DNA from: Polynucleobacter cosmopolitanus
GTDB taxonomy: Bacteria > Pseudomonadota > Gammaproteobacteria > Burkholderiales > Burkholderiaceae
Assembly (NCBI RefSeq): GCF_002224225.1
Contig: NZ_NJGG01000001.1
Location: forward strand, 773,374 to 837,373
DNA: 64,000 nucleotides
Direction of reading: 5' to 3'
Shown: in pieces, positions 6,829 through 25,490 of the stretch
How the letters are laid out: every line of letters starts with the position of its first letter
Position numbering within the stretch: the stretch's first letter is position 1
Notes under the pieces: generated by a model
Seen by the model: the letters and a program-made list of their open reading frames with translations, nothing else
Databases searched by the model: none
What the model was told of the DNA's origin: nothing
Position numbers and translations under genes: made by a program

Positions 6829-6873
6829 TGGTGGGTCGGGCGAGATTCGAACTCGCGACCAACGGATTAAAAG
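6829..6873 (-). repeat. Left attachment repeat: 3' remnant of tRNA-Lys
   Basis: Forty-five bases identical to 25415-25459, covering CCA, the acceptor 3' strand, the T arm, the variable region and the 3' side of the anticodon stem of tRNA-Lys. Identity stops abruptly at 6874, inside the anticodon loop, where the intact gene continues with its 5' half. This is the displaced tRNA end left by integration. Confidence 0.93.
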
Positions 6874-6949
6874 AGCATTTTTAACGCCGACAAACCCAAT
6901 TTAACACAGTTATATACATCTCACAGCTTCCGCCAAGTCAATAGGTATT

Positions 6950-7048: not shown

Positions 7049-7097
7049 AGGATTGAAAATCCTTGTGTCGGTGGTTCGATTCCGCCCCGGGCCACCA
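7049..7097 (+). pseudogene. tRNA-Phe 3' remnant (copy A)
   Basis: The last 49 bases of a tRNA-Phe(GAA): 3' part of the anticodon arm with the GAA anticodon in TTGAAAAT, variable loop, T arm (GGTTCGATTCC) and acceptor strand ending CCA. The 5' half is missing; upstream sequence does not form a D arm or acceptor partner. It is followed by a UUCG-loop terminator, as a real tRNA gene might be. Confidence 0.88.
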
Positions 7098-7107
7098 AGA
7101 TTCTATA

Positions 7108-8025: not shown

Positions 8026-8047
8026 AGCAAGACATCCTCGGCCCTGG

Positions 8048-8072
8048 TCGATTCCGCCCCGGGCCACCAAGA
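8048..8072 (+). pseudogene. tRNA-Phe 3' remnant (copy B)
   Basis: Twenty-five bases identical to 7076-7100: the T-loop strand and acceptor 3' strand of tRNA-Phe with CCA plus the next bases. A looser match reaches back to about 8034 (ATCCTCG). It lies 22 bp after the CDF gene stop, so this gene sits between two tRNA-Phe ends. Confidence 0.82.
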
Positions 8073-8076
8073 ATTC

Positions 8077-8172: not shown

Positions 8173-8177
8173 AAACA

Positions 8178-10006: not shown

Positions 10007-10009
10007 TCA

Positions 10010-11413: not shown

Positions 11414-11422
11414 GAGCAAAAA

Positions 11423-11899
11423 ATGAAAATAATTTATTTAATGATTGGTTTAGCAATATCTCAGCTTAGCTTTGCTCATGGGGATCAGCATAAAAAAATG
11501 AATCAACAGGCATCCTTTCAACAAGAGGAGTGGGGTATTGGCGGCACAAAGAATGAAGTGAATCGAACTATTGCTATATCAATGGGCGATGATATGAAAT
11601 TTAAGCCAGAAAAAATCAATATCAAGGCTGGTGAAACTATACGCTTTGAAATTAAAAATAACGGAAAGCTGTTACACGAAATGGTAATTGGCACAAAGCA
11701 AGTGCTTGATAAGCATGCCGAGATGATGGTAAAGCATCCCAATATGGAGCATGATGAACCCTACATGGCACATATCTCACCTGGTAAAAAAGGTGAAATT
11801 ATTTGGAAATTTAATCGTGCTGGAAGTTTTGATTTTGCTTGCTTGATTACCGGGCACTATCAGGCTGGAATGGTTGGAAAGATTGAGGTACAGCAATGA
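11423..11899 (+). CDS. Cupredoxin family periplasmic copper protein
   Basis: A 158-residue exported protein (signal peptide KIIYLMIGLAISQLSFA) with a plastocyanin/azurin-like fold. The type-1 copper ligands appear in order: His in NGKLLHEMVIG near 93, then Cys, His and Met in FACLITGHYQAGMVG near 140-149. A GDQHKK stretch after the signal and a Met/His-rich loop (HAEMMVKHPNMEHDEPYMAH) may bind extra copper. It likely shuttles copper or electrons for the oxidase, 9 bp upstream. Its stop overlaps the next gene (ATGA). Confidence 0.88.
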   Translation: MKIIYLMIGLAISQLSFAHGDQHKKMNQQASFQQEEWGIGGTKNEVNRTIAISMGDDMKFKPEKINIKAGETIRFEIKNNGKLLHEMVIGTKQVLDKHAEMMVKHPNMEHDEPYMAHISPGKKGEIIWKFNRAGSFDFACLITGHYQAGMVGKIEVQQ

Positions 11900-12174
11900 A
11901 AAAAATAATAACCTTAATGATGTGTTTAGTAAGTTTTGCTGTTGGAGCTACCGAGTGGACTAAGGGCGAAATTCGTCGTGTTGATGCTGAAAATAAGAAA
12001 GTCACCATCAAGCATGAGGAAATTAAAAGTCTTGATATGGCGCCGATGTCCATGGTTTTTAATGTTGAGACTACAGAAGTTTTAAAGGGAGTTAACCCTG
12101 GAGATCAAGTTGAATTTGTAGCTGAGCAAAAGGGAACAAAACTATTCGCAAAGCAGCTTAGAAAAATTCCGTAG
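11896..12174 (+). CDS. CusF-like periplasmic copper-binding protein
   Basis: A 92-residue protein with a signal peptide and the small OB-like domain of CusF/CopK-type copper chaperones (GEIRRVDAENKKVTIKHEEI...MAPMSMVFNV). Of the CusF ligands, the His (KHEE) and the two Met residues (MAPMSM) are present, but the tryptophan that caps Cu(I) in E. coli CusF is replaced (SLDMAP). This is common in stand-alone homologues. Its start overlaps the cupredoxin stop by 4 bp, so the two are probably made together and pass copper between periplasmic partners. Confidence 0.85.
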   Translation: MKKIITLMMCLVSFAVGATEWTKGEIRRVDAENKKVTIKHEEIKSLDMAPMSMVFNVETTEVLKGVNPGDQVEFVAEQKGTKLFAKQLRKIP

Positions 12175-12183
12175 GAGGCCTAA

Positions 12184-12678
12184 TTGAATTTAATTAAAGA
12201 TGAAGTGATGAATACTGTTAGATTAGTAAATCAGCAAAGAAGACTTATTTCATTTGGCTTAGTTTTATTACCTACATTGAGTTTTGCCGTGATAGAGAAG
12301 CCCTTAATTACAATGTGGAAAAGCCCAACTTGTGGATGCTGTAAAGATTGGGCGGCGTACTTAGAAAAAAATGGCTTTCATGTAAAGGCAATTGATATCG
12401 GCAATACTGAAATGCGCCAAAAGCTGGGGATGCCAGTTCAGTTTGGCTCATGCCATACTGCCCAAATCAATGGTTATGTCATTGAAGGACATGTTCCTGT
12501 CCGAGAAATTAAGCGCCTGCTAGCAGAAAAGCCAAAGGTATTGGGTTTAGCGGTTCCAGCAATGCCTTTGGGATCTCCTGGCATGGATGGTCCAGAGTAC
12601 AAAGGCAAGAAGGATCCATACGATGTTCTATTAATTGGGCTGAATGGCGAGCATTCTGTCTATCAGTCCTACAGGTAG
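12184..12678 (+). CDS. DUF411 family periplasmic metal-binding protein
   Basis: DUF411 proteins occur in copper-resistance operons and are thought to bind metal. Here a signal-like hydrophobic stretch (SFGLVLLPTLSFA) precedes the conserved MWKSPTCGCCKDWAAYLEKNGF motif with its CGCC cluster, followed by SCHTAQINGYVIEGHVP, both family signatures, and a C-terminal PGSPGMDGPE-like segment. The start is a TTG at 12184: AGGAGG at 12173-12178 stands exactly 5 nt upstream, while the in-frame ATG at 12208 has no ribosome-binding site. Length 164 residues. It is the last gene of the copper operon. Confidence 0.85.
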   Translation: MNLIKDEVMNTVRLVNQQRRLISFGLVLLPTLSFAVIEKPLITMWKSPTCGCCKDWAAYLEKNGFHVKAIDIGNTEMRQKLGMPVQFGSCHTAQINGYVIEGHVPVREIKRLLAEKPKVLGLAVPAMPLGSPGMDGPEYKGKKDPYDVLLIGLNGEHSVYQSYR

Positions 12679-12746: not shown

Positions 12747-12939
12747 ATTACAAGACACTATGGTGGTTGACTGGAGGGGTGTGGCAACACAATCTATACA
12801 CACAGAAAAATTGCCCCTCGCAAGATTCTGATTTCATTGCTAAATTTGACCGGCACAAGGACGCACAATTTTTAGACAAGTCGAGACTGGTGACTCAAGC
12901 CCTTGAAATCAAAGCGAAAGCGGTCTATCGGAGGATATT

Positions 12940-12982
12940 TGAAAATCCTTGTGTCGGTGGTTCGATGCCGCCCCAGGCCATC
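12940..12982 (+). pseudogene. tRNA-Phe 3' remnant (copy C), degenerate
   Basis: Forty-three bases matching tRNA-Phe remnant A from the anticodon (TGAAAATCC) to CCA, with three substitutions, one of which changes the final CCA to TCA. The T-stem pairing is damaged, so it is older or unselected. It marks the border between the copper module and the RND efflux module. Unlike A and B, no clear terminator follows. Confidence 0.82.
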
Positions 12983-13183
12983 AAAATATCAAAACCACTT
13001 TCAGCCGATTTTTAAAGATTTGAACTCTTTAAAGAAGTGCTAATCTGTTACACATTTCTTAACAGAGATTAATAAGGCTTTTAGACCCGAGCCTTTAAAG
13101 GTGAAGATTTCTGAAATTAAAGCCATTTTAGATATGTGGGAATGCTTCGAACAAAAAAACTAGAAATATGTTTTAATTACGTT

Positions 13184-13585: not shown

Positions 13586-14869
13586 ATGTTGCGAGAGTAC
13601 TCAAGCGTATTTAGAAGTTGCGCGTATTTAATAGCCGGTCTATTTTTTTCACAAATCTCAGCGTTTGCTTATGCAGATGTGGGTGGATTAAATCGTTTTG
13701 ACCTAAAAGCATTCTACAATTCTGCCTGGGAGCGCCAGCCAGAATTCAAAACTTTTCAATACAAGATTGATTCAGCAATCGCGAAGCAGAAAGTTGCCAG
13801 TAGTTTTTTGGCAAGTCCAGCTTCAATTGAATTTTCTCAAAAAACCGACAAAGCAAATAATAATTTAGGCATGAGTGAAACTGTTATTGGCCTAGGATTT
13901 CCCCTTTGGTTGTGGAATGAGAGATCAAGCTCAGTTAATTTGGCAAACGCTGAATATAAAAAATTGATGTCTCAATATTATTTAAGTCAATTAAAAGTTG
14001 CTGCTGAAGTAAGAGATGCGTATTGGAGTTATCAAAAAACCAAATTAGAGAATGATTTGGCTCATAGTAGATTTGAAAACACAAAAACTTTAGCAATTGA
14101 TGTGGAAAAAAGATTTAAAGCTGGGGATTTAGCCAGGGCAGACTTGCATCAGGCAAATGGGGCATTGGCAACTGCAGAGTTAAATTTAGAGGAAGCAACG
14201 GCTAATTTAATTAATGCTGAACAAAGGATAAAAACACTACTTGGTACCGAAAAGTTTCAAAAAATTAAATTGGATATTGTTTTAAAAAATACGGAGCCAC
14301 TCCCCAAGGTTCCGGAAAACTTTTCCAGTTTAGATGCTAGTTTGCCAATTGTTATAGCCCTTATTGATCAATTGGATGTGGCGAAAAGAGCGGTCGAATT
14401 GGTTCAATCAAAAACACGCACATCTCCTGAGTTGCAAATTTTGAGCTCAAAAGGTCGAGAGGTTTATGGTTCTCCATATCAACAATCAATCACTGTCGGA
14501 ATAAAAATCCCGTTTGGATCTTCTGCTGTAAATGCAGATCGATTGGCATCTGCAACTGCTGAAATGGTTGACTCAGAAATTAAGCTTGCATACGAAAGGG
14601 AGTCTGCATTAAGTAATGTGGAGTCAAACGTAACCTTGGTTAAATCAGCACAGATAAAGCTTGATGCGGCCAATAAAAGATCAACTCTTGCAAATGAAAC
14701 ACGTCAATTTTTTGATAAATCATTTCGATATGGGGAGACTGATTTGCCAACTAGATTGAGAATTGAATTGGAAGCTGTTGATGCTAACAAACAAGCGGTG
14801 ATTGCCAAAATCAATTACGCCATTTCTGTTTCAAATTTAAGGCAGGCGCTTGGCCTGCTACCAGAGTAA
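13586..14869 (+). CDS. CzcC-like outer-membrane efflux protein (TolC family)
   Basis: A 427-residue protein with a signal peptide (residues 1-30, ending in AFAYA) and the usual two-repeat TolC/OEP layout: coiled-coil helices near 130-210 (YWSYQKTKLENDLAHSRF, FKAGDLARADLHQANGALATAELNLEEA) and 320-425 (FGETDLPTRLRIELEAVDANKQ). It is the outer-membrane exit of a tripartite RND pump. The genes downstream supply the adaptor and permease in the usual CBA order. No N-terminal lipobox cysteine is evident. Confidence 0.85.
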   Translation: MLREYSSVFRSCAYLIAGLFFSQISAFAYADVGGLNRFDLKAFYNSAWERQPEFKTFQYKIDSAIAKQKVASSFLASPASIEFSQKTDKANNNLGMSETVIGLGFPLWLWNERSSSVNLANAEYKKLMSQYYLSQLKVAAEVRDAYWSYQKTKLENDLAHSRFENTKTLAIDVEKRFKAGDLARADLHQANGALATAELNLEEATANLINAEQRIKTLLGTEKFQKIKLDIVLKNTEPLPKVPENFSSLDASLPIVIALIDQLDVAKRAVELVQSKTRTSPELQILSSKGREVYGSPYQQSITVGIKIPFGSSAVNADRLASATAEMVDSEIKLAYERESALSNVESNVTLVKSAQIKLDAANKRSTLANETRQFFDKSFRYGETDLPTRLRIELEAVDANKQAVIAKINYAISVSNLRQALGLLPE

Positions 14870-14879
14870 AGGCTCGATC

Positions 14880-15452
14880 ATGAATATCATTACTAAAAAC
14901 TTAATACGACTCTGTTCATCACTGCTCTTTTTTACTGTTGGATCACTAGCTTATGCGGGTCCAGGGCATGATCATGGGGAGGAAAAAACCGCAGTTCACT
15001 CAACCATTAAGAAACCAAAATTTTATATGGAATCTGAGTTATATGAGGTTGTCGGCACCATTGATGGAAAGAATATTGTCATTTTTATTGACGACTATCT
15101 GACAAACAGAAAAGTTTCAGAAGCCGAATTAACACTTAACGTCGATGATCAAGCCATTAAATTGGTTAAAGCTGTGAATGACACATATCAAGGAAATCTT
15201 TCCAGTCCGGTAGGAAAAAAATCTCTATCTATAACTTTATCTGTAAAAGATAAGGATGTTGATGACATTTTGATCACCACATATGACCCGACAGATCACG
15301 ATGTTTTAAAGATTTTTAGATGGTGGTATTGGTCTCTTTGGCTAATATCCTCGATGACTCTTATCGCAATGCTTTTTATCGGCTTTAGAGAAAAGCAAAG
15401 ATTGATCACTGCTTATAAAAAGCTAATTAACTTCATTAAGGAGCGGAAATGA
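14880..15452 (+). CDS. Membrane-anchored periplasmic protein resembling the N-terminal domain of CzcB adaptors
   Basis: A 190-residue protein: signal peptide (residues 1-25), a GPGHDHGEE stretch able to bind metal, a beta-rich domain (ESELYEVVGTIDGKNIVIFIDDYLTNRKVSEAELTLNV... ), a membrane helix (WWYWSLWLISSMTLIAMLFIGF) and a short basic cytoplasmic tail. Similar beta domains are often fused to the front of heavy-metal CzcB adaptors; here it is a separate gene and the neighbouring adaptor lacks it. The start is the ATG at 14880 rather than the TTG at 14850. Its stop overlaps the adaptor start (ATGA). The domain relation is from memory of family patterns, not a search. Confidence 0.55.
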   Translation: MNIITKNLIRLCSSLLFFTVGSLAYAGPGHDHGEEKTAVHSTIKKPKFYMESELYEVVGTIDGKNIVIFIDDYLTNRKVSEAELTLNVDDQAIKLVKAVNDTYQGNLSSPVGKKSLSITLSVKDKDVDDILITTYDPTDHDVLKIFRWWYWSLWLISSMTLIAMLFIGFREKQRLITAYKKLINFIKERK

Positions 15453-16483
15453 AAAAGGGAGCACAAGTCGCGCGCATCGGATTTTTATCGTTTTTTATTT
15501 CAATTTCTTTTCCATCCTATGCTGGTCCAGGACATGACCATGGTGATTCACCAGCAGCTGTTGAGCATTTTGATGGTCCTAAGAGGCAAGTAAATGGTGA
15601 TGTATTTTTGCCAAAACAGGCCCAGCGTCAGCTTTTTATTGAAACTGAGCAAATAGAATCAGGAAGCTTTTCTAAAACTTATGACTTGGCAGGTAAGGTG
15701 ATCATGGATCCCAATTATGGCGGCAAGGTTCAAGCCATAGTTGCTGGGCGAGTAACTCCCGGACCTAAAGGATTTCCTTTACCAGGTCAAAAAGTGAAGA
15801 AAGGCGAGATTCTTGCATATGTAACGCCAGAGTCAGGACCAAATGGTTCAAGATCTTTAGCGGAGAGTCGTTTAAAAAGACTTCGTGAGCTTTCCGATAC
15901 TGTGCCTAAGAAAATGATTGAGGAGGCTGAAGCTGCTATTGCGAATGAAGAATTAAGAGCCCCAGTCAGTGGAATAATCTCCACAATGGGTATTGTTTCT
16001 GGTCAAGTTGTAGATGCTCGCCAATTAATTTTTGAAGTTGTTAATCCAAAGAAACTTTTAATTGAAGCACTTGCTTATGACGCTGGACTAGTTAATGACA
16101 TAGCTGGTGGAACAGTTACTGTTAATGACAAGACTATTCAACTTGAATATCTTGGTGGTGGTCAAGCTCTTCGTGAGCAAGCATTGCCGATTATGTTCTC
16201 GGTTAGCAGCGAGGAAATTTCAGGGGTGCCAGTGGGGCAATCTCTAAGGGTATTGGTCAATACAAAAAATCAAGTAAAAGGCTGGAAAATTTCTGCTTCT
16301 GCTCTGGTAAAAAATTCTTCAAATCAAAATATTATTTGGATAAAAAAATCACCAGAATTATTTGAGCCAAAGCCTGTCTTTTATGAGCCTTTAGATGGAA
16401 AGCACTTCGTTGTTATCTCTGGAGTTTCGGATAAAGATCGAGTAGTGACTAAATCAACCACTTTACTTAATCAAATTCGCTAG
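15449..16483 (+). CDS. CzcB-like periplasmic adaptor (membrane fusion protein) of RND metal efflux
   Basis: A 344-residue HlyD-type adaptor that would link the inner-membrane permease to the outer-membrane channel. After the signal peptide comes GPGHDHGD, as in the gene before. The lipoyl-like halves are VQAIVAGRVTPGPKGFPLPGQKVKKGEILAYV (near 90-120) and ELRAPVSGIISTMGIVSGQVVDARQLIFEVV (near 168-200), joined by a very short helical hairpin. The beta-barrel and membrane-proximal domains follow. Adaptor and permease genes are 9 bp apart. Confidence 0.87.
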   Translation: MKKGAQVARIGFLSFFISISFPSYAGPGHDHGDSPAAVEHFDGPKRQVNGDVFLPKQAQRQLFIETEQIESGSFSKTYDLAGKVIMDPNYGGKVQAIVAGRVTPGPKGFPLPGQKVKKGEILAYVTPESGPNGSRSLAESRLKRLRELSDTVPKKMIEEAEAAIANEELRAPVSGIISTMGIVSGQVVDARQLIFEVVNPKKLLIEALAYDAGLVNDIAGGTVTVNDKTIQLEYLGGGQALREQALPIMFSVSSEEISGVPVGQSLRVLVNTKNQVKGWKISASALVKNSSNQNIIWIKKSPELFEPKPVFYEPLDGKHFVVISGVSDKDRVVTKSTTLLNQIR

Positions 16484-16492
16484 AGGCTGCTC

Positions 16493-19400
16493 ATGTTTAC
16501 CTGGTTATTAAATTTCAGCCTTAAAAACAGAATTATTGTTCTACTAGTTAGTTTGATAATGGTTGTTTATGGCGCATTTACCCTAAAACAGTCATCTGTT
16601 GATGTCTTTCCAGACCTCAATAAGCCAACGGTCACAGTAATGACTGAGGCTGGCGGTATGGCCTCTGAGGAGGTGGAGCAATTAATCACTTACCCATTAG
16701 AAACGGTGATGAATGGATTGCCGGGGGTTGAATCAGTTAGGTCTGTTTCAAGTGCTGGATTATCTTTCATCTATATCACTTTCGACTGGTCAACCAATAT
16801 ATATTTGGCGAGGCAGCTTGTCGGGGAGCGTCTTGGATCGATGGAAAGTGCTTTACCTACTGGGCTGGTCCCGCGTATGGGGCCAATTAGCTCAATCATG
16901 GGTGAAATTATGCAGATAGCTATACCTGTCGAGGAAGAAAAAATTTCTTCAATGCAGGTAAGGGAATATGCCGATTGGGTTTTAAGGCCAAGAATTATGG
17001 CTATTCCTGGTGTAGCTCAGGTTATTCCAATTGGCGGCCAAGTTCGACAATTTCAAGTTCAGCCCAATACTCGTTCAATGGCTGAGCTGGGGATTTCATT
17101 GGAACAGCTAGAAAATGCACTAAATGGACATTCATCTAATACTTCAGGTGGATTTATTGAATCAAATAATAAAGAATACTTGATTCGAAATTTGGGTAGA
17201 ACAACAAGCTTAGAAGACCTAAAGAATTTATCTGTTGCTGTAAAAAATAATCAATCAATCTTGCTTAGGCAGATAGCGGATGTAACTTTTGCTCCTGCAG
17301 TAAAAAGGGGCGATGCTGGATACAAGGGTAAACCTGCTGTTATCTTGGGTATTCAAAAGCAGCCATCTGCAGATACAGTCTCCTTAACTAAAAATATTGA
17401 ATCTGCATTATTTGAGCTAAAAGCTAGCCTACCTACTGGGATGGATGAGCCTCGAATCACTTTTCGCCAAGCGACATTTATTGAGTCATCAATTAATACC
17501 CTAGAGGTCAAATTAATTGGAGCTTCATTTTTTGTTGCGGTAATTCTTTATTTCTTTCTTGGAACTTTTAGACCCGTTCTTATATCGTTAACAGCAATAC
17601 CGATCTCAATATTAATAACTGCTTTGGTCTTTAAGTATTTTGGATTGTCAATTAATACTATGACATTGGGTGGTTTAGCCATTGCTATTGGTGGGCTTGT
17701 AGATGATGCGGTAGTTGACGTTGAAAACATTATTCGACGTTTAAGGTTGAACTCTGAAAAGCCTGAATCTGAAAGGTTGAAACTGATAGATGTGGTTCGA
17801 CTGGCATCTCTTGAGGTACGGACAGGAATCATTTATGCAACGGGAATCATTATTTTAGTCTTTATTCCATTATTTGCATTATCTGGTATTGAGGGGAAGC
17901 TCTTTACTCCCTTGGGAATTGCATTCATTGTTTCAACTTTAGCCTCATTGATCGTTTCCGTGTCCGTAACACCTGTGATGAGTTATTACTTGTTGCCAGC
18001 AATGAAAAATTTAGGTCATGGTGACACAAAAGTTCTTCAGTGGCTAAAGACCAAATACGAGTTTCACCTAAATAGGTTTTTAGATGCTCCTAAAAAAGCA
18101 ATTAGATTATCGCTAGTAGCTGTCTTTCTTTCAATTGTCGGGATTGGATTAATGCCAACTTCGTTTCTTCCTCCGTTTAATGAAGGTACCTTATTAATAG
18201 GTATGAGATTAAACCCTGGTGCATCTTTGACTGAATCATCATTGATTGCTCAACAATCCGAACTTTTAGTTAGCCAGGTTCCTGAAGTTACATATGTTGG
18301 ACGTAGAAGTGGGCGCGCTGAGCTTGATGAGCATGCAGAGGGAGTTCATGTCAGTGAGCTTGATGTTGGAATAAAGCCTTCAAAAGAGTTAACCAGATCA
18401 ATGGTTGACATTCAAAACGATATCAGAAGTCGGTTAGTCAATATTCCGGCAGCTATTGCGATAGGGCAACCAATTTCACACCGAATTGATCACATGTTGT
18501 CTGGTGTTCGCTCTCAAATAGCTATAAAGATCTTTGGGGATGACTTGGATGTTTTAAGGAGCCAAGCAAACACGTTGAGGGACAAGATTGCTGGAGTAGA
18601 AGGTCTTGCTGATTTAGAAATTGAAAAGCAAGTTCTAGCACCTCAATTCAAAGTTAACATTAATTACAATTTGGCTTCGCAGTACGGGGTTTCAACAGCT
18701 CAATTAATGAAATCATTACAGTCCTTGATCGAGGGTGAAAATATTTCACAAGTTGTTGAGGGTAATAGAAGATTTGCCCTGGTCATGAAGTTGCCAGAAT
18801 CTTCACGAAGCGTTGATGGTTTAGCAGGTATATTGATTGATACACCGAACGGAAAAATTCCTTTATCAAGAGTAGCCACAATTGAGGATAGTGACGGGCC
18901 TAATCAAATAAGCCGTGATGATGGAAAGCGCCGTATCGTTATCTCTGCCAATGCCTCTGGAAGACCTCTTTCATCTGTTGTTGAAGATATTAGATCTTCT
19001 ATAAACGATATGAATTTGCCAACGGGATACTTTGTTACGATTGGGGGCCAGTTTATTGCTCAAGAGAAAGCATCACGTTTGATTGCACTGTTATCTATTG
19101 GCTCGCTATTGATGATGTTTGTAGTTCTTTTTAGTAAATACCAATCTACAAAGCTATCGCTAATGATCATGTTTAATATCCCTCTGGCTTTGATTGGTGG
19201 GGTGGTTGGATTATGGTTATCAGGACAACCCTTGTCGATTGCGGCTTTAATCGGGTTTATTACCCTTGCAGGCGTTTCGGTAAGAAATGGAATTCTAAAA
19301 ATTAGCCACTATTTGAATTTAATGAGATCTGAAGGCGAGGGCTTCACAAAAGAAATGATAGTAAGAGGTTCCCTCGAGCGCTTATCTCCAGTTTTAATGA

Positions 19401-19615
19401 CAGCTCTTGTAACGGCTTTTGCTCTTGCGCCATTGTTATTTGAGGCAGAGCGTCCAGGCACAGAGGTTTTACATCCCGTTGCGGTTGTTATTTTCTCGGG
19501 ATTAATAAGTTCAACATTGTTGGATACTTTTTTGACCCCTGCGATATTTTGGTTGTACGGAAGAAGTGAAGTGGATAAGTTGAAGTTAAATTTAAATAAA
19601 GGAGAGGTTTACTAA
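16493..19615 (+). CDS. CzcA/CusA-like RND metal efflux permease
   Basis: A 1040-residue inner-membrane proton antiporter of the heavy-metal RND family. The length, twelve predicted helices and two large periplasmic loops are typical. The N-terminus (RIIVLLVSLIMVVYGAFTLKQSSVDVFPDLNKPTVTV) and the helix-4 acid motif (AIGGLVDDAVVDVENIIRRLR near residues 400-420) are HME-RND signatures; VDDAVVDVEN carries the acidic residues for proton relay. The exact motif differs from both the CzcA (DGAVVMVEN) and CusA patterns I know, so the metal is left open. It is expressed with czcC- and czcB-like genes upstream and a small periplasmic gene 2 bp downstream. Confidence 0.92.
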   Translation: MFTWLLNFSLKNRIIVLLVSLIMVVYGAFTLKQSSVDVFPDLNKPTVTVMTEAGGMASEEVEQLITYPLETVMNGLPGVESVRSVSSAGLSFIYITFDWSTNIYLARQLVGERLGSMESALPTGLVPRMGPISSIMGEIMQIAIPVEEEKISSMQVREYADWVLRPRIMAIPGVAQVIPIGGQVRQFQVQPNTRSMAELGISLEQLENALNGHSSNTSGGFIESNNKEYLIRNLGRTTSLEDLKNLSVAVKNNQSILLRQIADVTFAPAVKRGDAGYKGKPAVILGIQKQPSADTVSLTKNIESALFELKASLPTGMDEPRITFRQATFIESSINTLEVKLIGASFFVAVILYFFLGTFRPVLISLTAIPISILITALVFKYFGLSINTMTLGGLAIAIGGLVDDAVVDVENIIRRLRLNSEKPESERLKLIDVVRLASLEVRTGIIYATGIIILVFIPLFALSGIEGKLFTPLGIAFIVSTLASLIVSVSVTPVMSYYLLPAMKNLGHGDTKVLQWLKTKYEFHLNRFLDAPKKAIRLSLVAVFLSIVGIGLMPTSFLPPFNEGTLLIGMRLNPGASLTESSLIAQQSELLVSQVPEVTYVGRRSGRAELDEHAEGVHVSELDVGIKPSKELTRSMVDIQNDIRSRLVNIPAAIAIGQPISHRIDHMLSGVRSQIAIKIFGDDLDVLRSQANTLRDKIAGVEGLADLEIEKQVLAPQFKVNINYNLASQYGVSTAQLMKSLQSLIEGENISQVVEGNRRFALVMKLPESSRSVDGLAGILIDTPNGKIPLSRVATIEDSDGPNQISRDDGKRRIVISANASGRPLSSVVEDIRSSINDMNLPTGYFVTIGGQFIAQEKASRLIALLSIGSLLMMFVVLFSKYQSTKLSLMIMFNIPLALIGGVVGLWLSGQPLSIAALIGFITLAGVSVRNGILKISHYLNLMRSEGEGFTKEMIVRGSLERLSPVLMTALVTAFALAPLLFEAERPGTEVLHPVAVVIFSGLISSTLLDTFLTPAIFWLYGRSEVDKLKLNLNKGEVY

Positions 19616-19617
19616 TC

Positions 19618-19989
19618 ATGAAATTAATTAAATTGTTAATGGGTTTGTTTTTGTGCGTGTCATCTGCAGCCTTTGCGTCTAAGAATCACGATGTCAATCC
19701 TATGCAAGGCGGCAAAGTAACTACTACAAAAGATATAGACATCGAATTTGTCTTAAAAAAAGAAGATATGAAGGTCTTTTTGCGGGATCATGGCAAGCCG
19801 TTAGATATAAAAGGTGGGACTGCTAAGGTTACCTTATTAAAAAGCGGAGCTAGCAAAGAGTATGAGTTGAAAAATGCATCAGATTATTTTCAATATTCAG
19901 GTGATCTTGGAGTGGTTGCTGGCACAAAAGCAATAGTTGTGGTGAGAATTAAGGAAAAGGTATTTTCAGTTAGATATGCATTCGATTGA
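19618..19989 (+). CDS. Small periplasmic protein of the RND metal operon
   Basis: A 123-residue exported protein with signal peptide (KLIKLLMGLFLCVSSAAFA). The mature part, NPMQGGKVTTTKDIDIEFVLKKEDMKVFLRDHGKPLDIKGGTAKVTLL, has the GG...DIEFVL...VFLRDHGKPL pattern of small proteins that accompany Czc/Cus-type operons, with a DHG segment that could bind metal. No enzymatic motif. It starts 2 bp after the permease stop and ends the operon. Function unproved. Confidence 0.65.
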   Translation: MKLIKLLMGLFLCVSSAAFASKNHDVNPMQGGKVTTTKDIDIEFVLKKEDMKVFLRDHGKPLDIKGGTAKVTLLKSGASKEYELKNASDYFQYSGDLGVVAGTKAIVVVRIKEKVFSVRYAFD

Positions 19990-20044: not shown

Positions 20045-20154
20045 GTGCCTAAGGGCATGATTGTTAATTATGTTCGGAGATAGCGTCCGCCTTATTTTAT
20101 AGTTTCATCATAAGATCAAGGCGTTGCTCAATATTGCATTACCAAATTTATAAA

Positions 20155-20646
20155 TTATTTTATATTTTTTAATATATCTTCAACGCTAATTGGTTCTTTT
20201 GGGATGCCATTCCATTGTGGGCCTTTCATGAATTTTTCGAACTCAGGGTCAGGTTTGGGTTTAAAGGGAAATCTACCCTTAGGTGTTAAGCCAAGTTCAT
20301 TCATTAGCAGAACTGCTTTAGTAACCGCTTTGTCCCTAATATCTACATGATGATTTTTACCTGTCACCCCATTATGGTGAGTCACAACTAAACCATTTTT
20401 GGAAATATCTTTGCAGCAAATCACAAAGGTTTCTAACATCTCAGCTAGCATCGCTAATGAGTGCTTATCTTGGTCAGTGCTGTGGCCATAGGCATTCCAT
20501 ATGAAATCAGAAGCTTCCTGAATAAATTGGTATTTATCCCATGTGTTGGGGTCGCTTACCCAATGAGCCAGCGGAATTGGTTTAATTTCTATTGATAAAT
20601 TGCAACTTGGAGTTACTGCAACTGATTTGCTTCTTGATTGGTTCAT
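20155..20646 (-). CDS. P27-family-like phage terminase small subunit
   Basis: A 163-residue protein. Its second half, KNGLVVTHHNGVTGKNHHVDIRDKAVTKAVLLMNELGLTPKGRF, follows the P27 small-terminase pattern: a G-rich loop, an N-x-x-V-x-I-R segment and a closing ELGLTP-x-x-R. The helical first half (HSLAMLAEMLETFVICCKDI) fits the DNA-binding/oligomer region. A small terminase selects DNA for phage packaging. No large terminase, portal or capsid gene is in the island, so it would have to act with a helper phage, or serve another role. It is the last gene of the minus-strand core operon and converges on the metal cargo. Confidence 0.62.
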   Translation of the reverse strand: MNQSRSKSVAVTPSCNLSIEIKPIPLAHWVSDPNTWDKYQFIQEASDFIWNAYGHSTDQDKHSLAMLAEMLETFVICCKDISKNGLVVTHHNGVTGKNHHVDIRDKAVTKAVLLMNELGLTPKGRFPFKPKPDPEFEKFMKGPQWNGIPKEPISVEDILKNIK

Positions 20647-20677
20647 GGGAATACCCCTCTTTTTGGAAATAGGTTGT

Positions 20678-20690
20678 GTGAAAAATTCAC
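20678..20690. promoter_or_regulatory. Small palindrome upstream of the terminase-like gene
   Basis: GTGAA-AAA-TTCAC lies 32 bp upstream of the terminase-like start on the minus strand and could be an operator. Low certainty. Confidence 0.3.
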
Positions 20691-20723
20691 CCCGAGCTTG
20701 CTTTTATTAAAGGCCATTAATAA

Positions 20724-21026
20724 TTAAGTTTCTATTGAGGGTGGAGGTTTTAGGATTTCAACTTGAGGAAAGCTACCCTTTGGTGTTGTAAATTTAATTA
20801 GACCGTAGGCCTCTAGTTTTTTAAGGTTTAATTGACGTGCTTGGCGGCTAATGCCACACAGCAAGTCTAGCTTCCCATCAATCTTGAAGGTTAATGACTT
20901 CTTAAGGCCAACATATAGCCATAAAGCATTCCCGACCACTCCTGCTTTACCACCAATATTATTTGCCATCATTAACCAATCGAAGGGAATGGGTCCTTTG
21001 ATAAATAGCTTGTCAGTTTTGATCAT
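20724..21026 (-). CDS. Small winged-helix-like protein of integrative elements
   Basis: A 100-residue protein. KGPIPFDWLMMANNIGGKAGVVGNALWLYVGLKKS is followed by a likely helix-turn-helix (LDLLCGISRQARQLNLKKLEAYGLIKFTTPKG) and a short wing ending in VEIL. I have seen this layout (KGPIPW..W...A..LPGKAL..ALWL) in proteins of mobile elements, where they probably bind DNA. It lies between the polymerase and the terminase-like gene, 72 bp after the former. The target is unknown. Confidence 0.5.
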   Translation of the reverse strand: MIKTDKLFIKGPIPFDWLMMANNIGGKAGVVGNALWLYVGLKKSLTFKIDGKLDLLCGISRQARQLNLKKLEAYGLIKFTTPKGSFPQVEILKPPPSIET

Positions 21027-21098
21027 ATTTAATTATTGAATTAGATAAAAGATAAGAATGGACGGGTGTTATGCTGCTTAACAGGTAGGTGTTAAGTT

Positions 21099-22832
21099 CT
21101 ATTGCTTAACTTGTTTTAGTATCGCCATTACTTGTTCCCAGAATTTTTTAGCGCTATCGTCTAAAAATCTGTCCGGGTAGCGAAAAATCTCAGCTTCACT
21201 TGATAATTTGAAGCCTGACAATATGAACTGACTAGCTTCTTCCATGCAGGCTTGCGCTTCTTTCACTTTCTCTTCGATTTTGTCCTCGGGGGCTTCGATT
21301 AGAACGGCATCATGTATAGGGGCACATAGTTGAATTTTTCTATCAGCCATCAATATGCATGCAACTCTTAATAGTTCTGCTGCATTCGCTTGCATAGGAA
21401 AATTTCTGAGACTTCTCGGGTTGAGGTCAGCCTCGACGTTTAGATTCCAGCCACATAGGGTACTAATTTTGTTGGCTTGGACTGTGACGTTGAAAGTATT
21501 ATCTGACCAGTCCCAGAATTTTCTGTATACCTTCCTGTGCATTGTCAAAAGCTGTCTGGCCCTTATAACGGGTTGTTTCAATCTAACAGCTAAAGCGTCA
21601 GCGCCCATCCCGTATTGCGTAGCAAGTACACATTGTTTGTATTGGTCTCTTTCACTTGTGTGACTTTGTTTAGTTGCGTCCTGTGGGACTGCATGAGCTT
21701 GTTTTGCAAAAGCTAGGTATGGGTCACCGCTGGTATAGGCATCTTTCATGTTTTGATCGCCGGATAGGGCTGCTGCAATACCAAATTCTTGTTGAGACCA
21801 ATCAATGTAGGCGAGGGCCATCCCGGGTTTTGGTTGAATCAAACCCCTTGCCCATTTAGAAAGTCCAAATATAAACTTTGTCGTAGAAGGTTGGTTTCTA
21901 CCTGTGATTGAACTAAACGGCGATAGTAGGCATCTATTACGGCCATCACTACCGACCTGTAATGCATTTAATCGTAATTTAGCCAAGCTGTCCCTCAGGT
22001 GGCGTAGCGGAATAATCTCTGGGTAAATCTTTGACATTGCTTTGAATGTTTCTTCATCCAGCTTTAAACGTCCCGAGGGAAGCCTTTCCCATCTAATATT
22101 ATTTTTACTGAGATACGCTCCAAATAACTCTTCTTTGAATGTGCTATTGATATAAACACCAAAATCTTTATCGACTTGTTTAATTAATTGGTCTTTAATT
22201 TTGTCCCAATAATTGCAAAGGTCTTGGTAAAGTTCGTAGTCAATGGGTGTGCCTCTAGTCTCCATTATCGAAATAGGGATGTTGTACTTGCCCCTCATCA
22301 GGGCTCTAGGCATCTCAAGTGATGGAAACAGAGCCGCTAATAGAGGCTCTAGGGAGTCAACGTCGCTCTGGCAGTACTCGAGCAGGGATTTCTTTTCGTT
22401 ATCTGTAAAGGGCCCACCGCGCATGGCTAATGCCCGCATTTCATCTTTGTGTGCACTTTCAATGCTGGGAAGTCCAAAATATTTCAAGGCCCCAATAATC
22501 GACCTGCCAAATGGATGAGTTACGCCATTTGAAAAGTTTCTAAATTCCGTATACAAGTCGAGAATTTCACCTTCCCATTCCCAGCCAAGCGCGTTGAAAC
22601 AATTTAATTCAGCACTTGCGTAATAAGCGACAAGCGTTTGATTTCGGATGTTTGAAAAAGGGTGAGTTTCCATAGCATATAAATCATCAGCCCATAGTCT
22701 TAGGTATTCGCCAGTTGTTAGATTTTTTGAAACCATGCAAATCACTTCTAAGGGGTTACCCTCAACCCCATCTTTGGGCTTAAATTCAAAGTCGATTAAG
22801 ATGAATTCCTGTGAGGTTGTTAATCTGCTCAT
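21099..22832 (-). CDS. Family-A DNA polymerase with 3'-5' exonuclease domain (phage/plasmid type)
   Basis: A 577-residue replicative-type polymerase. The N-terminal 190 residues look like a DnaQ-type exonuclease (LIDFEFKP for Exo I, YCQSDVDSLEP for Exo III). The C-terminal half is a PolI-like palm and fingers: motif A AYIDWSQQEFGIAAALSGD, motif B RDQYKQCVLATQYGMGA with the R-x3-K-x7-YG spacing, and motif C APIHDAVLI with the second catalytic Asp. Motif C has HDA where bacterial PolI has HDE. The frame extends to 22877, but the ATG at 22832 has a GGGAG site and starts 1 nt after the upstream stop. It probably copies the element itself. Confidence 0.87.
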   Translation of the reverse strand: MSRLTTSQEFILIDFEFKPKDGVEGNPLEVICMVSKNLTTGEYLRLWADDLYAMETHPFSNIRNQTLVAYYASAELNCFNALGWEWEGEILDLYTEFRNFSNGVTHPFGRSIIGALKYFGLPSIESAHKDEMRALAMRGGPFTDNEKKSLLEYCQSDVDSLEPLLAALFPSLEMPRALMRGKYNIPISIMETRGTPIDYELYQDLCNYWDKIKDQLIKQVDKDFGVYINSTFKEELFGAYLSKNNIRWERLPSGRLKLDEETFKAMSKIYPEIIPLRHLRDSLAKLRLNALQVGSDGRNRCLLSPFSSITGRNQPSTTKFIFGLSKWARGLIQPKPGMALAYIDWSQQEFGIAAALSGDQNMKDAYTSGDPYLAFAKQAHAVPQDATKQSHTSERDQYKQCVLATQYGMGADALAVRLKQPVIRARQLLTMHRKVYRKFWDWSDNTFNVTVQANKISTLCGWNLNVEADLNPRSLRNFPMQANAAELLRVACILMADRKIQLCAPIHDAVLIEAPEDKIEEKVKEAQACMEEASQFILSGFKLSSEAEIFRYPDRFLDDSAKKFWEQVMAILKQVKQ

Positions 22833-22833
22833 C

Positions 22834-23418
22834 TCAAATTCTCCCTGCCAATTGCTTGATGTAAGGGTGTTCCTCACTTGAAATTACCTTGTTATTGAAT
22901 ACGTCAGCAATCAATTCGGCCATGGATTGTTTCGGCCACTCTGGTTCACCTAGTTCGTTTGCAGCAATAATGATTCTGTACTGCTGGGCAGCCATATCTG
23001 ACTCAATCCGGATCCAGCTTTCTTCTGCTAGCGCTATTGCTTGAATCATTGAGGCATTCCATAAATTGGGACGCCCACCTAAATCAGGAATTGGCTCAGC
23101 AATAATTTTGGGGACACCATAATTGTCAACAGCAAGTCGTAGCAGTTTGGGGGTTGCATTGTTGCCTAAATGACTAGCCATACTGTACGTAGCGATATAT
23201 TCCTCGCCGGCATCTTTATCCTCAACAATTAATGCGGGGAATTTGTAATCCGTACTTGGATGAACTCTAGAGAAGCGGTGTTTATTTAATTTCCCAAACG
23301 ATGGCTTGGTTGGTAGTTTTATTCCACCAATAGTGTTTGAAAAGTTGGAAGGGAGCATGGCATCTTTAAGCCAAGACGGAGTTCGTAGTTCATCGTTATT
23401 TGTTTCTTTAGTAGACAT
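22834..23418 (-). CDS. Hypothetical protein upstream of the polymerase
   Basis: A 194-residue soluble protein that I do not recognise. The first 50 residues are polar and proline-rich (SWLKDAMLPSNFSNTIGGIKLPTKPSFGKL); residues 70-160 look like a compact alpha/beta domain with LRLAVDNYGVPKIIAEPIPDLGG and a helical SMIQAIALAEESWIRIESDMAAQQYRIIIA segment; the end is acidic and helical. No catalytic motif. It is translationally linked to the polymerase (1 nt between stop and start), so a replication accessory role is plausible but unproven. Confidence 0.6.
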   Translation of the reverse strand: MSTKETNNDELRTPSWLKDAMLPSNFSNTIGGIKLPTKPSFGKLNKHRFSRVHPSTDYKFPALIVEDKDAGEEYIATYSMASHLGNNATPKLLRLAVDNYGVPKIIAEPIPDLGGRPNLWNASMIQAIALAEESWIRIESDMAAQQYRIIIAANELGEPEWPKQSMAELIADVFNNKVISSEEHPYIKQLAGRI

Positions 23419-23449
23419 GATTATTCCTTTGCGGTTAATTGGATATTGA

Positions 23450-23704
23450 TTAATGCTTTACAGAAAAAGACCGTTTGGTTTTTTCTTGAAGCAATTCAAT
23501 TAAGGTGGGGACGAAGTCAGGTTGGACAATGTGGAATCTGCCCATTAGCTTGACGAGCACACCTGCAGCGATTAATTCTTGTGCGTGTGTGCGTATGAAC
23601 CAGTCGCCAGAGTATTTATTCTTAAATAATCTGTGACCTTCTGGGGAATCTAGGAAGTCTTTGAAGGACTCAAGATTCTTTAGTTTTTCTACTGTGTATT
23701 CCAT
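23450..23704 (-). CDS. Small hypothetical protein, first gene of the replication operon
   Basis: An 84-residue protein without recognised family. KNLESFKDFLDSPEGHRLFKNKYSGDWFIRTHAQELIAAGVLVKLMGRFHIVQPDFVPTLIELLQEK looks like a helical bundle with a possible helix-turn-helix (THAQELIAAGVLVKL), so a small DNA-binding regulator or replication helper is possible. The start has AAGGAG 6 nt upstream, and that site lies inside a long inverted repeat. It is 31 bp upstream of the 194-residue protein gene. Confidence 0.55.
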   Translation of the reverse strand: MEYTVEKLKNLESFKDFLDSPEGHRLFKNKYSGDWFIRTHAQELIAAGVLVKLMGRFHIVQPDFVPTLIELLQEKTKRSFSVKH

Positions 23705-23773
23705 ACAACTCCTTATAAAAAATAGTAGTGACGCGTGACAAGCGCGACACAGACATTTTGACAGGAGTTGTAT
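23703..23773 (-). promoter_or_regulatory. Leader with RBS-hiding inverted repeat and inner operator-like palindrome
   Basis: Eleven bases, ATACAACTCCT (23703-23713), recur inverted as AGGAGTTGTAT (23763-23773). On the minus-strand RNA the downstream arm is the ribosome-binding site plus the first bases of the start codon of the 84-residue gene, so pairing would block translation. In the 49-nt loop lies GTGACGCG-n7-CGCGACAC (23728-23750), an inverted repeat with one mismatch, and a TTGTCA / TATAAG pair 18 bp apart that could be a promoter. Confidence 0.5.
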
Positions 23774-23801
23774 TGAGTTTGAAGCTAAGTTATTGATTTT
23801 A

Positions 23802-23828
23802 TTTGTAATTTTACTGTAAAACTACAAA
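23802..23828 (-). terminator. Palindromic terminator candidate at the end of the 185-residue protein gene
   Basis: TTTGTAATTTTAC and GTAAAACTACAAA are inverted with one mismatch and one central base; the stop codon of the minus-strand gene falls in it. It would separate the integrase transcript from the replication operon. Confidence 0.5.
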
Positions 23829-24379
23829 TTTTCCTTTTCAAATTCACTCTTCCAGATTCGGATTAGTGTTTGAAGACGTCGTTTTGAGAACTTCTTTTCA
23901 GGGTAGTTTTCTTTTAGGGAGTCAGCAGCAACTTCATTCGTGTAGCGAGCAAAGTCTTTTAAATTTTTTGTGTATAGTTTTTTCGCTTCTTCATATTTTC
24001 TTTGGTCATTGGCTGTTCTATTTGGTATCCCTCTTTCTTTTGCAGCACTTGCTTGCATAGAAATCGAGTACTCAACAATTTTTGCTATTCGGCTATTGGG
24101 TCTCATAAATTTACTTAACCCCAATTTGGTACTTTTACTCCAGTTGTTAGCTTGGAATAAGACTTCGAAAAATCTAGTTTCAATGTCAATGGCATCTTTG
24201 GGAGCGTCGGGGCGGAAAGTGGTAAGCGTTGCTAACTTGGCTAATGCGTATAGAGCGCTTTCGTAATTAGGGAAAAATTCTTGAAGTTCCGAGAACACTT
24301 CCTTAAGCTCATTCTTTTGTTCTTCAGTTAGTGTTTCTTCCACAAGGTATTTTTCAATCACATCCACTTTCGCACTCAT
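23822..24379 (-). CDS. Hypothetical protein translationally coupled to the integrase
   Basis: A 185-residue, mostly alpha-helical, charged protein not recognised. KNELKEVFSELQEFFPNYESALYALAKLATLTTF and a basic C-terminal half (FSKRRLQTLIRIWKSEFEKENL) suggest a nucleic-acid-binding or excisionase-like accessory role; that is inference. Its start is 1 nt after the integrase stop, and its ribosome-binding site (AGGAG) lies in the last integrase codons, so the two are made together. Confidence 0.58.
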   Translation of the reverse strand: MSAKVDVIEKYLVEETLTEEQKNELKEVFSELQEFFPNYESALYALAKLATLTTFRPDAPKDAIDIETRFFEVLFQANNWSKSTKLGLSKFMRPNSRIAKIVEYSISMQASAAKERGIPNRTANDQRKYEEAKKLYTKNLKDFARYTNEVAADSLKENYPEKKFSKRRLQTLIRIWKSEFEKENL

Positions 24380-24380
24380 T

Positions 24381-25337
24381 TCAAGCTCCTTGGTTATTGA
24401 AAACGCGACTCAACATCTCAGCGCGTGTATCTACACATAGGTGTGCATATCTCTTGGTCATGGCTAATGATTTGTGACCAAGGCTATCGGCAATGGCGAG
24501 TAGTGGAGCACCACGCTTAGCAAGCCACGAGGCATGGGTATGTCGCAGGCTGTGGAATACGACCCCTTCAATTTGTGCATCTTTCAAAGCTTGCTCCCAA
24601 GGTTTGTTGAAATTCATGGGTTTTGTTGGATACCTTCCACAAAATACTAAATCTTCTGGATTTGTTTTTGTGGAAATTCTTTGGAATTCTTGAATAACAT
24701 CTGGCATAAGCACTAGAACGAAAGGATCGCCATTTTTGGTTCTTTCACAGAAGGCTCGTCCTGAATTTAGGTCAACATCTTTCCATCTAAGCCCTAAAAG
24801 AGTACCTCGTCTAGCGCCAGTAGTTACCGCTAACATAATGAGAAGGGTAAGTTTGTTCCAGCTAGCCAATCTAGATACTTTAATTAATTTTTCGTACTCA
24901 GGCTCTGACAAGTAGCGAGTCCTTGCGTTGTCTTCTGGAAGGCGTTGAGTTTCTACAACAGGATTAACCCAAGTCTTGGGCATTAATCGACGTTTTCTTG
25001 CCCATGTGAGAACGGATTGGAGGGTGCATCGATAGCGATTGATAGTCGCGTCCGCAAGCGTTTTATGCGTTGAAATGACAGAGCCACCTCGTTTATTACC
25101 TCCAACATTAAAAAGGCGTCCACGCTGTTTTAATGCCTCTAGAACATCATCAATATCGTCCGCATCAATTTCGGACGCAACTTTCTCTCCCAAGTGTTGG
25201 GTAAAGAAACTTAAACGACTAGTGAAGGAAGGATCGCGACCTTGATAGCAGGCCATGAAGGTATCAGCGAGAGCTGATAAGGTGAACATTTCTCCCCGAG
25301 TCACTGGGGGTGTTGCTGTGTTACTTTGTGTTGACAT
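24381..25337 (-). CDS. Tyrosine-type site-specific integrase
   Basis: A 318-residue phage-type integrase. An N-terminal SAM-like core-binding domain spans residues 20-125. The catalytic domain has Arg in TTGARRGTLLGLRW, a beta-hairpin Lys region (CERTKNGDPF), His-x-x-Arg in HSLRHTHASWLAKRG, His in LGHKSLAMTKRYAHL and the nucleophile Tyr in the same segment. There is no separate arm-binding domain of the long lambda type. It lies 78 bp from the right attachment repeat at tRNA-Lys, its presumed target. It should catalyse integration and, with a helper, excision of the island. Confidence 0.93.
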   Translation of the reverse strand: MSTQSNTATPPVTRGEMFTLSALADTFMACYQGRDPSFTSRLSFFTQHLGEKVASEIDADDIDDVLEALKQRGRLFNVGGNKRGGSVISTHKTLADATINRYRCTLQSVLTWARKRRLMPKTWVNPVVETQRLPEDNARTRYLSEPEYEKLIKVSRLASWNKLTLLIMLAVTTGARRGTLLGLRWKDVDLNSGRAFCERTKNGDPFVLVLMPDVIQEFQRISTKTNPEDLVFCGRYPTKPMNFNKPWEQALKDAQIEGVVFHSLRHTHASWLAKRGAPLLAIADSLGHKSLAMTKRYAHLCVDTRAEMLSRVFNNQGA

Positions 25338-25359
25338 GATTAGTTCTCCAAATAAGTTA

Positions 25360-25374: not shown

Positions 25375-25414
25375 ATTTCATTTGTCGACGCTAATCACTC
25401 GCCACTACTATCTT

Positions 25415-25459
25415 TGGTGGGTCGGGCGAGATTCGAACTCGCGACCAACGGATTAAAAG
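25415..25459 (-). repeat. Right attachment repeat within intact tRNA-Lys
   Basis: Identical to 6829-6873 over 45 bases. Being part of the functional gene, it is the tRNA end that the element carried in to rebuild the tRNA on integration. Confidence 0.93.
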
Positions 25460-25490
25460 TCCGCTGCTCTACCGACTGAGCTACCGACCC
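25415..25490 (-). tRNA. tRNA-Lys(TTT)
   Basis: A complete 76-nt cloverleaf on the minus strand with encoded CCA. The acceptor stem GGGTCGG/CCGACCC pairs fully, the D arm is GCTCAGTCGGTAGAGC, the anticodon loop CTTTTAA reads TTT (lysine), and the T arm is GCGAGTTCGAATCTCGC. It is the integration site of the island. Confidence 0.97.

Follow-up and report, generated by a model that had tools for sequence, protein, structure and literature searches.

By what means does a set of bacterial genes travel when it joins an integrase, a DNA polymerase and a small phage terminase, and no phage structural gene is found with it? This question is raised by a stretch of 64,000 nucleotides from Polynucleobacter cosmopolitanus (contig NZ_NJGG01000001.1, positions 773,374–837,373), called the window hereafter, in which an initial annotation had pointed to a minus-strand gene block as the core of a satellite-like element. 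We find that this block is the mobility half of a mobile element of 18.6 kb that occupies positions 6829–25459 of the window. The element is inserted at a tRNA-Lys gene between 45-bp repeats, and it carries an integrase, a family-A DNA polymerase (PolA) with two partner proteins, a small terminase (TerS, encoded by terS) and a cos region matching those of phages; no structural gene was found in it. In our judgement it is probably a cos-type phage satellite of infecting phages that resemble Methylophilaceae phage P19250A, with a replication module of polymerase type.

The extent of the element is given by its two ends. A second perfect repeat of the tRNA-Lys 3' end lies at 6829, and the element therefore runs from there to 25459 and includes the metal-resistance genes, which span 7198–19989. 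The gene block of the initial annotation holds, and the element as a whole is larger than had been noted, filling the full distance between the attachment (att) repeats. A 24-base probe of the tRNA-Lys 3' end found two matches in the window versus none in 100 shuffled sequences, and integration at this specific site would be the work of the element's own integrase. The source genome (G000) measures 1.78 Mb and belongs to the genus Polynucleobacter, in which named relatives such as L030, L034 and L036 are available. In one relative (G156), roughly 1 kb of other DNA separates the tRNA-Lys gene from orthologues of the window genes from 5254–5754 down to 341–919, and for that reason we take the element to be absent from this site there; in another (G463) the same orthologues come about 3.5 kb of other DNA after tRNA-Lys. 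Polynucleobacter sp. Latsch14-2 (L036) possesses a PolA core at the same tRNA-Lys site.

All the genes that had been named in the block are indeed present on the minus strand, namely the integrase, the small proteins, the polymerase, the winged-helix protein and TerS, as judged from open reading frame (ORF) calls, Pfam and PHROG matches and a profile match. The claim that structural genes are lacking also stands: a Pfam scan of 18 element proteins, outside which lie the small ORFs at 8625–8978, 13136–13516 and 14850–15452, returned no large terminase (TerL), portal or capsid family, and the TerL, portal and capsid of P19250A gave no tblastn match in the element at E up to 0.1.

The link to a particular group of phages comes from TerS and from the DNA directly upstream of its gene. 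The 163-residue protein had been suspected to be a P27-type small terminase, and the profile check bore this out (Table 1). When compared with 50,697 phage records, it finds its best match in P19250A, whose gene 1 encodes a related TerS and stands directly before terL, with portal and a capsid gene after that. A search of IMG/VR with eight aligned TerS proteins picked out 516 stretches by pattern, of which 477 encode relatives; the best 80 were kept, and they comprise 78 new loci besides two PolA contigs that were already known. A P19250A-like TerL is encoded in all 78 of the new loci, a portal in 73 and a capsid in 58, with TerL within 600 bases downstream of TerS in 73 of them, and the longest contigs reach approximately 31–41 kb. 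By these relationships, the TerS of the element is that of P19250A-like phages.

The same phage contigs disclose a candidate packaging site. Relative to the TerS match, 53 of the 78 contigs start 106–197 bases before it, five start closer and 18 start more than 260 bases away, and most of the 53 ends share related sequence of the kind CCCAATTnC...CACAAA...GTT...GGGGGGT. One contig starts in what looks like Illumina adapter sequence, and this start together with the related end sequences points to a physical DNA end at the contig starts. Phage contigs that read through this point carry AGAAACTTAAA, about 20 bases, AAAGCAAGCnCG and then the end sequence. Directly upstream of terS the window reads TAGAAACTTAATTATTAATGGCCTTTAATAAAAGCAAGCTCGGGGTGAATTTTTCACAC...GAGGGGTAT, and an alignment by eye with the phage contig ends would place the predicted cos terminus between 20691 and 20690.

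A hidden Markov model (HMM) was built from phage cos regions with no satellite in the training set. Of the 20 read-through phage loci, 17 entered (the near copies L207, L233 and L241 being excluded) and one of these (L178) was dropped as it had no anchor, which left 16. The target of 1.47 Mb consisted of the window and the 83 PolA loci described below, to which were added further islands with TerS, P19250A, the regions of G163 and G230 after joining, and regions that served as controls. Seven matches were obtained at E up to 0.032, each of them directly upstream of a TerS (L163, L036, L032, L031, the window, L171 and L162), so that six islands besides the window, distributed over three replication backbones, carry a cos found by the model. 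With the phage contig closest to the window (L206) left out of the training, the same seven matches lead and the window scores E 0.0044. Reversed targets gave a best E of 0.11, and 20 column-shuffled models produced one match altogether at E up to 0.05, which is not in the window. A degenerate pattern of the cos core (up to three mismatches) occurs in three of 186 Polynucleobacter genomes, always at the TerS of a PolA element, versus none of the 186 for the pattern read backwards. In IMG/VR the core pattern with two free positions is confined to L206 and L207, and the satellite-type cos is present in two IMG/VR contigs. PolA elements that carry another protein in place of TerS (G163, G230, L033–L035, L038, L051) show no cos match below E 1, as would be expected if this cos goes with this TerS. 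With terS and a phage-type cos directly upstream of it, the element would have the means to direct the packaging of a helper to its own DNA.

The other half of the argument concerns the replication core, made up of PolA, a 194-residue protein (p194) and a winged-helix protein (p100). In a collection of genomes from 84,980 species, 119 PolA relatives were found among 186 candidate stretches, and the best 80 together with three from IMG/VR make up 83 PolA loci, over which all counts are lower bounds since many contigs are incomplete: 82 have PolA as an open frame, 74 p194, 66 the winged helix and 56 an integrase. The titles of these records, many of them metagenome-assembled genomes, name Pseudomonadota, Planctomycetota, Bacillota, Nitrospinota, Mycobacterium and others, and in a protein collection 7941 of 8000 scored candidates match PolA at E up to 1e-30. 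Within the genus, PolA relatives (E up to 1e-40) are found in 11 of the 186 genomes, two of them broken (G339, G264), and the core block is therefore not peculiar to this genome. Six loci lie in stretches of 8.2–11.4 kb that are bounded by tRNA repeats 19–69 bp long (L080, in which the polymerase frame is split, L086, L088, L100, L101 and L102), and a repeat-bounded stretch of 17.5 kb with the PolA core is found in G230. The TerL, portal and capsid of P19250A have no tblastn match (E up to 0.1) in 12 such elements or stretches. In the relatives examined, the block is not seen as the edge of a full prophage, and its core recurs beside tRNA genes without structural genes of P19250A type. Among plasmids, 32 records match the polymerase and none covers 80% of it; viral contigs yielded no PolA with a single protein as query and three loci with an alignment. 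As a separate observation, the PolA element of Neobacillus mesonae (L081) has a gene resembling a Clp-type head maturation protease with no capsid seen beside it, and the genes that follow, apparently cargo, resemble type I restriction genes on inspection by eye.

Sequence patterns agree with a polymerase that has a 3'-5' exonuclease. In 79 long PolA homologues, loose patterns of motifs A, B and C are found in 69, 75 and 79, and those of exonuclease motifs I and III in 72 and 76, the motif names being those customary for this polymerase family. A winged-helix profile of 46 homologues matches solved winged helices of GntR/FadR type (best E 2.1e-4), and p100 is a possible replication initiator or regulator. 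For p194 no relative of solved structure was found by sequence, and no Pfam family is matched by more than one of 55 members; it is possibly a replication accessory. At E up to 1, neither Pfam nor PHROG recognised a primase or a helicase among the seven core proteins. A divergent primase may be hidden in p194 or in the small proteins, and p194 would be the first candidate for the supply of primers. A regulator pair of stl/rpr or alpA type was sought, and the 84-residue and 185-residue proteins match no convincing family; the former is a possible excision or regulatory factor.

The protein in the slot after the winged helix varies from element to element. It belongs to Terminase_4 in the window, to DUF5681 in G230 (E 1.1e-11) and, in G163, to what we call the HGG type (phrog_3678, E 2.7e-5). 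We scanned 101 non-core proteins, that is, slot proteins and the proteins of six complete elements except the small ones, and listed the top 25 of 40 Pfam and the top 25 of 85 PHROG families. Terminase_4 is the most frequent family with nine proteins, of which by our reading four come from the near-copy contigs L110 and L111; phrog_3678 has six, and there is one Sf6_terminase among the matches listed. No convincing partner was found among phage TerS for the HGG-type protein. The motif TTTGCATRGGT stands upstream of the HGG-type gene in all six sequences (G163, L033, L034, L035, L038, L051, two of them near copies), and in five of the six it is followed by AAAGACCCC and TA, in the same place as cos in the TerS elements. 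This region is possibly another packaging site; a stricter pattern made from the motif found nothing in viral contigs. The DUF5681 protein of G230 was considered as a TerS and set aside, since its only phage record is an unannotated 8.7-kb fragment that says nothing on TerS function. Two further loci are recorded here for their terminase genes. In an IMG/VR contig at tRNA-Lys (L110) the PolA core is followed by two genes of Terminase_4 type that differ from each other (5184–5597 and 5735–6136), and in Mycobacterium asiaticum (L105), far from Polynucleobacter, a P27-type TerS is read at 12337–12849, about 600 bases after a PolA relative.

The same TerS family is found on other backbones as well. 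Terminase_4 occurs in 13 of the 186 Polynucleobacter genomes: in five it is part of PolA elements (G000, G431, G456, G484, G497), in three it adjoins TerL in prophages (G218, G452, G422), in one the context is unclear (G344), and in four it lies on islands with neither PolA nor a TerL nearby (G329, G012, G445, G491). Two of the prophages have, beside TerS, genes that look like HNH genes. The G329 island (L162 7233–10336) is very short, with tRNA-Asn, an integrase (37% identical to that of the window), three small proteins, a TerS 71% identical to that of the window and a cos-like region at E 0.032; a protein of G329 looks DUF1376-like. The islands of G012 (L163), G445 (L164) and G491 (L171) share an integrase, two further proteins, which by eye look like a primase and an AAA protein, and a TerS 32–34% identical to that of the window. 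Their cos regions score E 4.6e-7 in G012, 0.013 in G491 and, more weakly, 1.4 in G445, in which the island is complete with 7.6 kb (L164 6420–14042) between 51-bp tRNA-Met repeats. It appears from this gene content that these three represent a second satellite-like island type of the genus, and G329 a third. From this distribution it seems that terS and cos travel as one cassette among three replication backbones.

A P19250A-like helper would have to reach this strain from elsewhere. A P19250A-like TerL (E up to 1e-10) is present in three of the 186 genus genomes, which are the three prophages, at 28–35% identity. The source genome has no such TerL at that threshold and no match to the Pfam portal model, and the helper must thus come from outside or be of another type. 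The P19250A record shows no annotated integrase, and we take this phage to be virulent. In the mechanism that we propose, a P19250A-like phage would infect the cell, upon which the integrase would excise the element, and PolA, p194 and the winged-helix protein would copy it. The element's TerS would then bind its own cos and recruit the large terminase of the phage, so that element DNA would be packaged into phage heads. A head that takes genomes of approximately 35–41 kb would have room for two lengths of the element (2 x 18.63 = 37.3 kb), which makes full-size heads holding two copies plausible. With such particles the metal-resistance cargo would reach a new cell, and the DNA would integrate there at tRNA-Lys.

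Other histories could leave a similar locus. One is an integrative element that moves by mobilised conjugation, natural transformation or generalised transduction and holds terS and cos as a captured passenger. The core is spread over many phyla mostly with no Terminase_4 assigned beside it, and hence does not need this terS, which suits such a passenger. Against it, terS sits at the same end position in five PolA elements of the genus, and the cos match reaches E 1e-4 or better in all but L030/G456, where it is weak (2.7); it is kept on two further backbones, and its family is the commonest in the scan of non-core proteins. No relaxase family appeared among 18 window proteins in the general Pfam scan, and no search aimed at relaxases was made. 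Moreover a cos beside terS favours a satellite, since a satellite needs cos and a chance capture of terS does not, and we consider the passenger explanation unlikely. A once-working satellite that has become a fixed island in this strain is given even less weight: accreted cargo with internal tRNA-Phe and tRNA-Ser fragments and the broken PolA of two genus copies would suit it, and it is opposed by the open frames of integrase, PolA and TerS in the window and by the presence of both att copies and cos. That TerS and the polymerase belong to phage protein families would also be expected of a decayed prophage that retained integrase, replication genes and terS. Yet the same core is found in complete elements of about 8–19 kb in several phyla without P19250A-type structural genes, and none of the 599 phage records that match the polymerase covers 80% of it, the 20 listed being 25–26% identical. 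A prophage remnant is highly improbable, and we reject it.

Several points weigh against a satellite of P19250A-like phages. Induction, packaging and transfer are predictions from sequence. The TerS is at best 53% identical to a phage TerS over the aligned part, so that the helper is narrowed to candidates of the P19250A-like group, for whose contigs no host is shown. Terminase_4 was assigned, by reading, in seven of the 83 PolA loci (a lower bound, as slot proteins and six elements were scanned). TerS is accordingly a recurrent but minority feature of the PolA superfamily, and because the core usually has no recognised TerS beside it, we argue satellite status for the subset with TerS and cos alone. 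The cos evidence is uneven: two of the 20 read-through phage contigs (L190 and L191, with the near copy L241) have no G run, and the HMM is weak on L164 (E 1.4), which is another TerS island, and on the window-type loci L030 (2.7) and L110/L111, which are near copies (8.5), where false matches set in from 2.1; P19250A itself, whose record begins inside the cos region, scores 2.8. An earlier and shorter HMM, trained on the left ends of phages only, missed the element. With a two-block matrix, p lay between 0.015 and 0.105 in six window-type islands and was 0.31 in the one other, and it lay between 0.18 and 0.97 in L163, L164 and L171; both designs are too weak alone, and the cos signal thus needs the whole region. 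At the integration site, no clean empty-site scar was read in G156, G149, G438 or G359, the two window genes adjoining the left end (5813–6780) are missing from G156, and the other three genomes have different neighbours at tRNA-Lys. Known cos satellites, as far as the available parts of their descriptions tell, rely on the TerS of the helper, which makes an own TerS together with cos unusual.

The remainder of the element is cargo (Table 1). Fragments of tRNA-Phe and tRNA-Ser bound the cation-efflux, copper and RND modules, and the full tRNA-Phe gene lies elsewhere in the source genome (G000:C1:384234). A related RND operon, with a pump 76% identical, is located between the PolA core and tRNA-Ser in G163, and a related copper module is found near the broken core of G264 and another about 8 kb from the island of G329. 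To judge from the tRNA fragments and these related modules, elements with different tRNA targets seem to hand cargo on to one another, much as in the additive islands of Methylopumilus (PMC10872708).

Table 1. Features of the element and its integration site (positions in the window)
Feature	Position	Strand	Remarks
attL	6829..6873		perfect 45-bp copy of the tRNA-Lys(TTT) 3' end; left end of the element
tRNA-Ser(TGA) fragment	6919..6945	+	27 bp identical to tRNA-Ser(TGA) 3' end plus flank in G163
tRNA-Phe(GAA) 3'-half fragment	7053..7101	+	cargo-cassette boundary
CDF cation efflux transporter	7198..8025	+	PF01545 1e-16
Second, shorter tRNA-Phe 3' fragment	8025..8073	+	65% over 49-nt frame
Copper module	9035..12678	+	9035-10006 no family; multicopper oxidase 10010-11413; cupredoxin 11423-11899; CusF-like 11896-12174; DUF411 12184-12678
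Third tRNA-Phe 3' fragment	12939..12987	+	92% identical to the first
Heavy-metal RND efflux operon	13586..19989	+	outer-membrane efflux protein, 200-aa protein, HlyD-type adaptor, RND pump 16493-19615, 123-aa protein
TerS, 163 aa, P27/Terminase_4	20155..20646	-	PF05119 2.4e-11; phrog_83 4.3e-13; P19250A gene 1 41%, 2e-22
cos-like packaging region	20651..20734	-	E 1e-4 with the HMM trained on 16 phage regions (target 1.47 Mb)
cos core AAAGCAAGCTCGGGGTGAATTTTTCACA	20677..20704	-	26/28 bases as in phage contig L206
p100, winged helix	20724..21026	-	homologues in PolA loci (counts in text)
PolA, family-A DNA polymerase with 3'-5' exonuclease motifs	21099..22877	-	PF00476 2.1e-24; phrog_17 2.8e-44; motifs by pattern
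p194, 194 aa	22834..23418	-	conserved PolA partner; without known family; model pLDDT 89.7
84-aa protein	23450..23704	-	homologues in L032, L036, L110, G484; without convincing family
185-aa protein	23822..24379	-	without convincing family; similar-looking proteins in same slot of relatives (by eye)
Tyrosine integrase, 318 aa	24381..25337	-	PF00589 6e-31; phrog_1 8.5e-54
tRNA-Lys(TTT), integration target	25415..25490	-	its 3' 45 bp, 25415-25459, are attR

On balance we lean towards a wider picture, in which p194, PolA and the winged helix define an unnamed superfamily that spans phyla, and in which members in freshwater Burkholderiales became cos satellites through a transferable terS and cos cassette that is also found on at least two unrelated backbones. 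Exchanges in the slot (DUF5681, HGG-type, Sf6-type TerS) may change the helper. If this is true, infecting phages would regularly bring metal-resistance genes from one freshwater bacterium to another, and movement of the cassette would explain how satellites adapt to new helpers. With the element, satellites would gain a replication module of polymerase type, in contrast to the primase modules described for others, and the replication core may deserve a name of its own. The route by which such metal-resistance islands are transferred is now open to test: the phage group has a name, and it, the packaging site of some 90 bp and the single gene can be examined one by one.

How the element relates to known systems is a question of packaging on the one hand and of replication on the other. 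The phage-inducible chromosomal islands (PICIs), including the Staphylococcus aureus pathogenicity islands (SaPIs) and among them the cos SaPIs, are described in the available parts of two accounts (PMC6092414, PMC5052747) as having, like the element, an integrase, a specific att site and a replication module of their own; some also have terS, and the cos members have a cos of helper type. As characterised there, PICIs possess a primase or initiator module and a divergent regulator pair, whereas the element has a family-A polymerase, p194 and a winged helix. For packaging, cos SaPIs bring a cos site and need the machinery of the helper; the element has terS together with cos. The initial likening to SaPIs and PICIs is therefore sound for the packaging strategy and fails for membership, which we reject because no primase-type replication gene is recognised and a family-A polymerase takes the place of that module. 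Membership of the capsid-forming PICIs is likewise rejected, as own capsid genes, TerL and HNH were not found in the element. The phage-inducible chromosomal minimalist islands (PICMIs), in the portion of the account available (PMC10803314), are also small islands without structural genes whose helper is an infecting phage; they belong to Vibrionaceae and have a primase and no identifiable packaging gene, in contrast to the element, which has terS, no recognised primase and relatives in Polynucleobacter, and is thus no PICMI. The vast majority of satellites are said in the same portion to carry a primase homologue (PMC10803314). The layout had been called unfamiliar for its own family-A polymerase next to metal-resistance cargo; this gene content is confirmed, and nothing fitting a polymerase-carrying satellite or a Polynucleobacter satellite was found among 5.39 million open-access papers, outside which most subscription papers lie.

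Further comparisons concern phages and cargo islands. P19250A is described in the available text as a siphovirus of the freshwater Methylophilales LD28 (PMC8163748). Phages of its kind (LD28/OM43 group) share the TerS family and the cos region with the element, which are all that is seen in common; they are full phages (38.7 kb in P19250A) with terL, portal, capsid and tail. Tycheposons and VEIMEs are, like the element, cargo elements of aquatic bacteria and, in the accessible part of one account, proposed satellite families (PMC11389934). Tycheposons are reported beside tRNA genes in freshwater Methylophilaceae (PMC10872708, as far as available), and the element shares their trait of a recombinase and cargo beside a tRNA, a likeness by description only; the words polymerase, terminase and satellite are absent from the main text of that paper. 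The additive islands fGI-2 of Ca. Methylopumilus, in the same partial source (PMC10872708), resemble the element in having cargo that includes czcD-type genes and repeats of a tRNA-Lys end. The passages available on fGI-2 mention no satellite core, whereas the element is distinguished by its own att pair, terS and cos, and by inner fragments of tRNA-Phe and tRNA-Ser.

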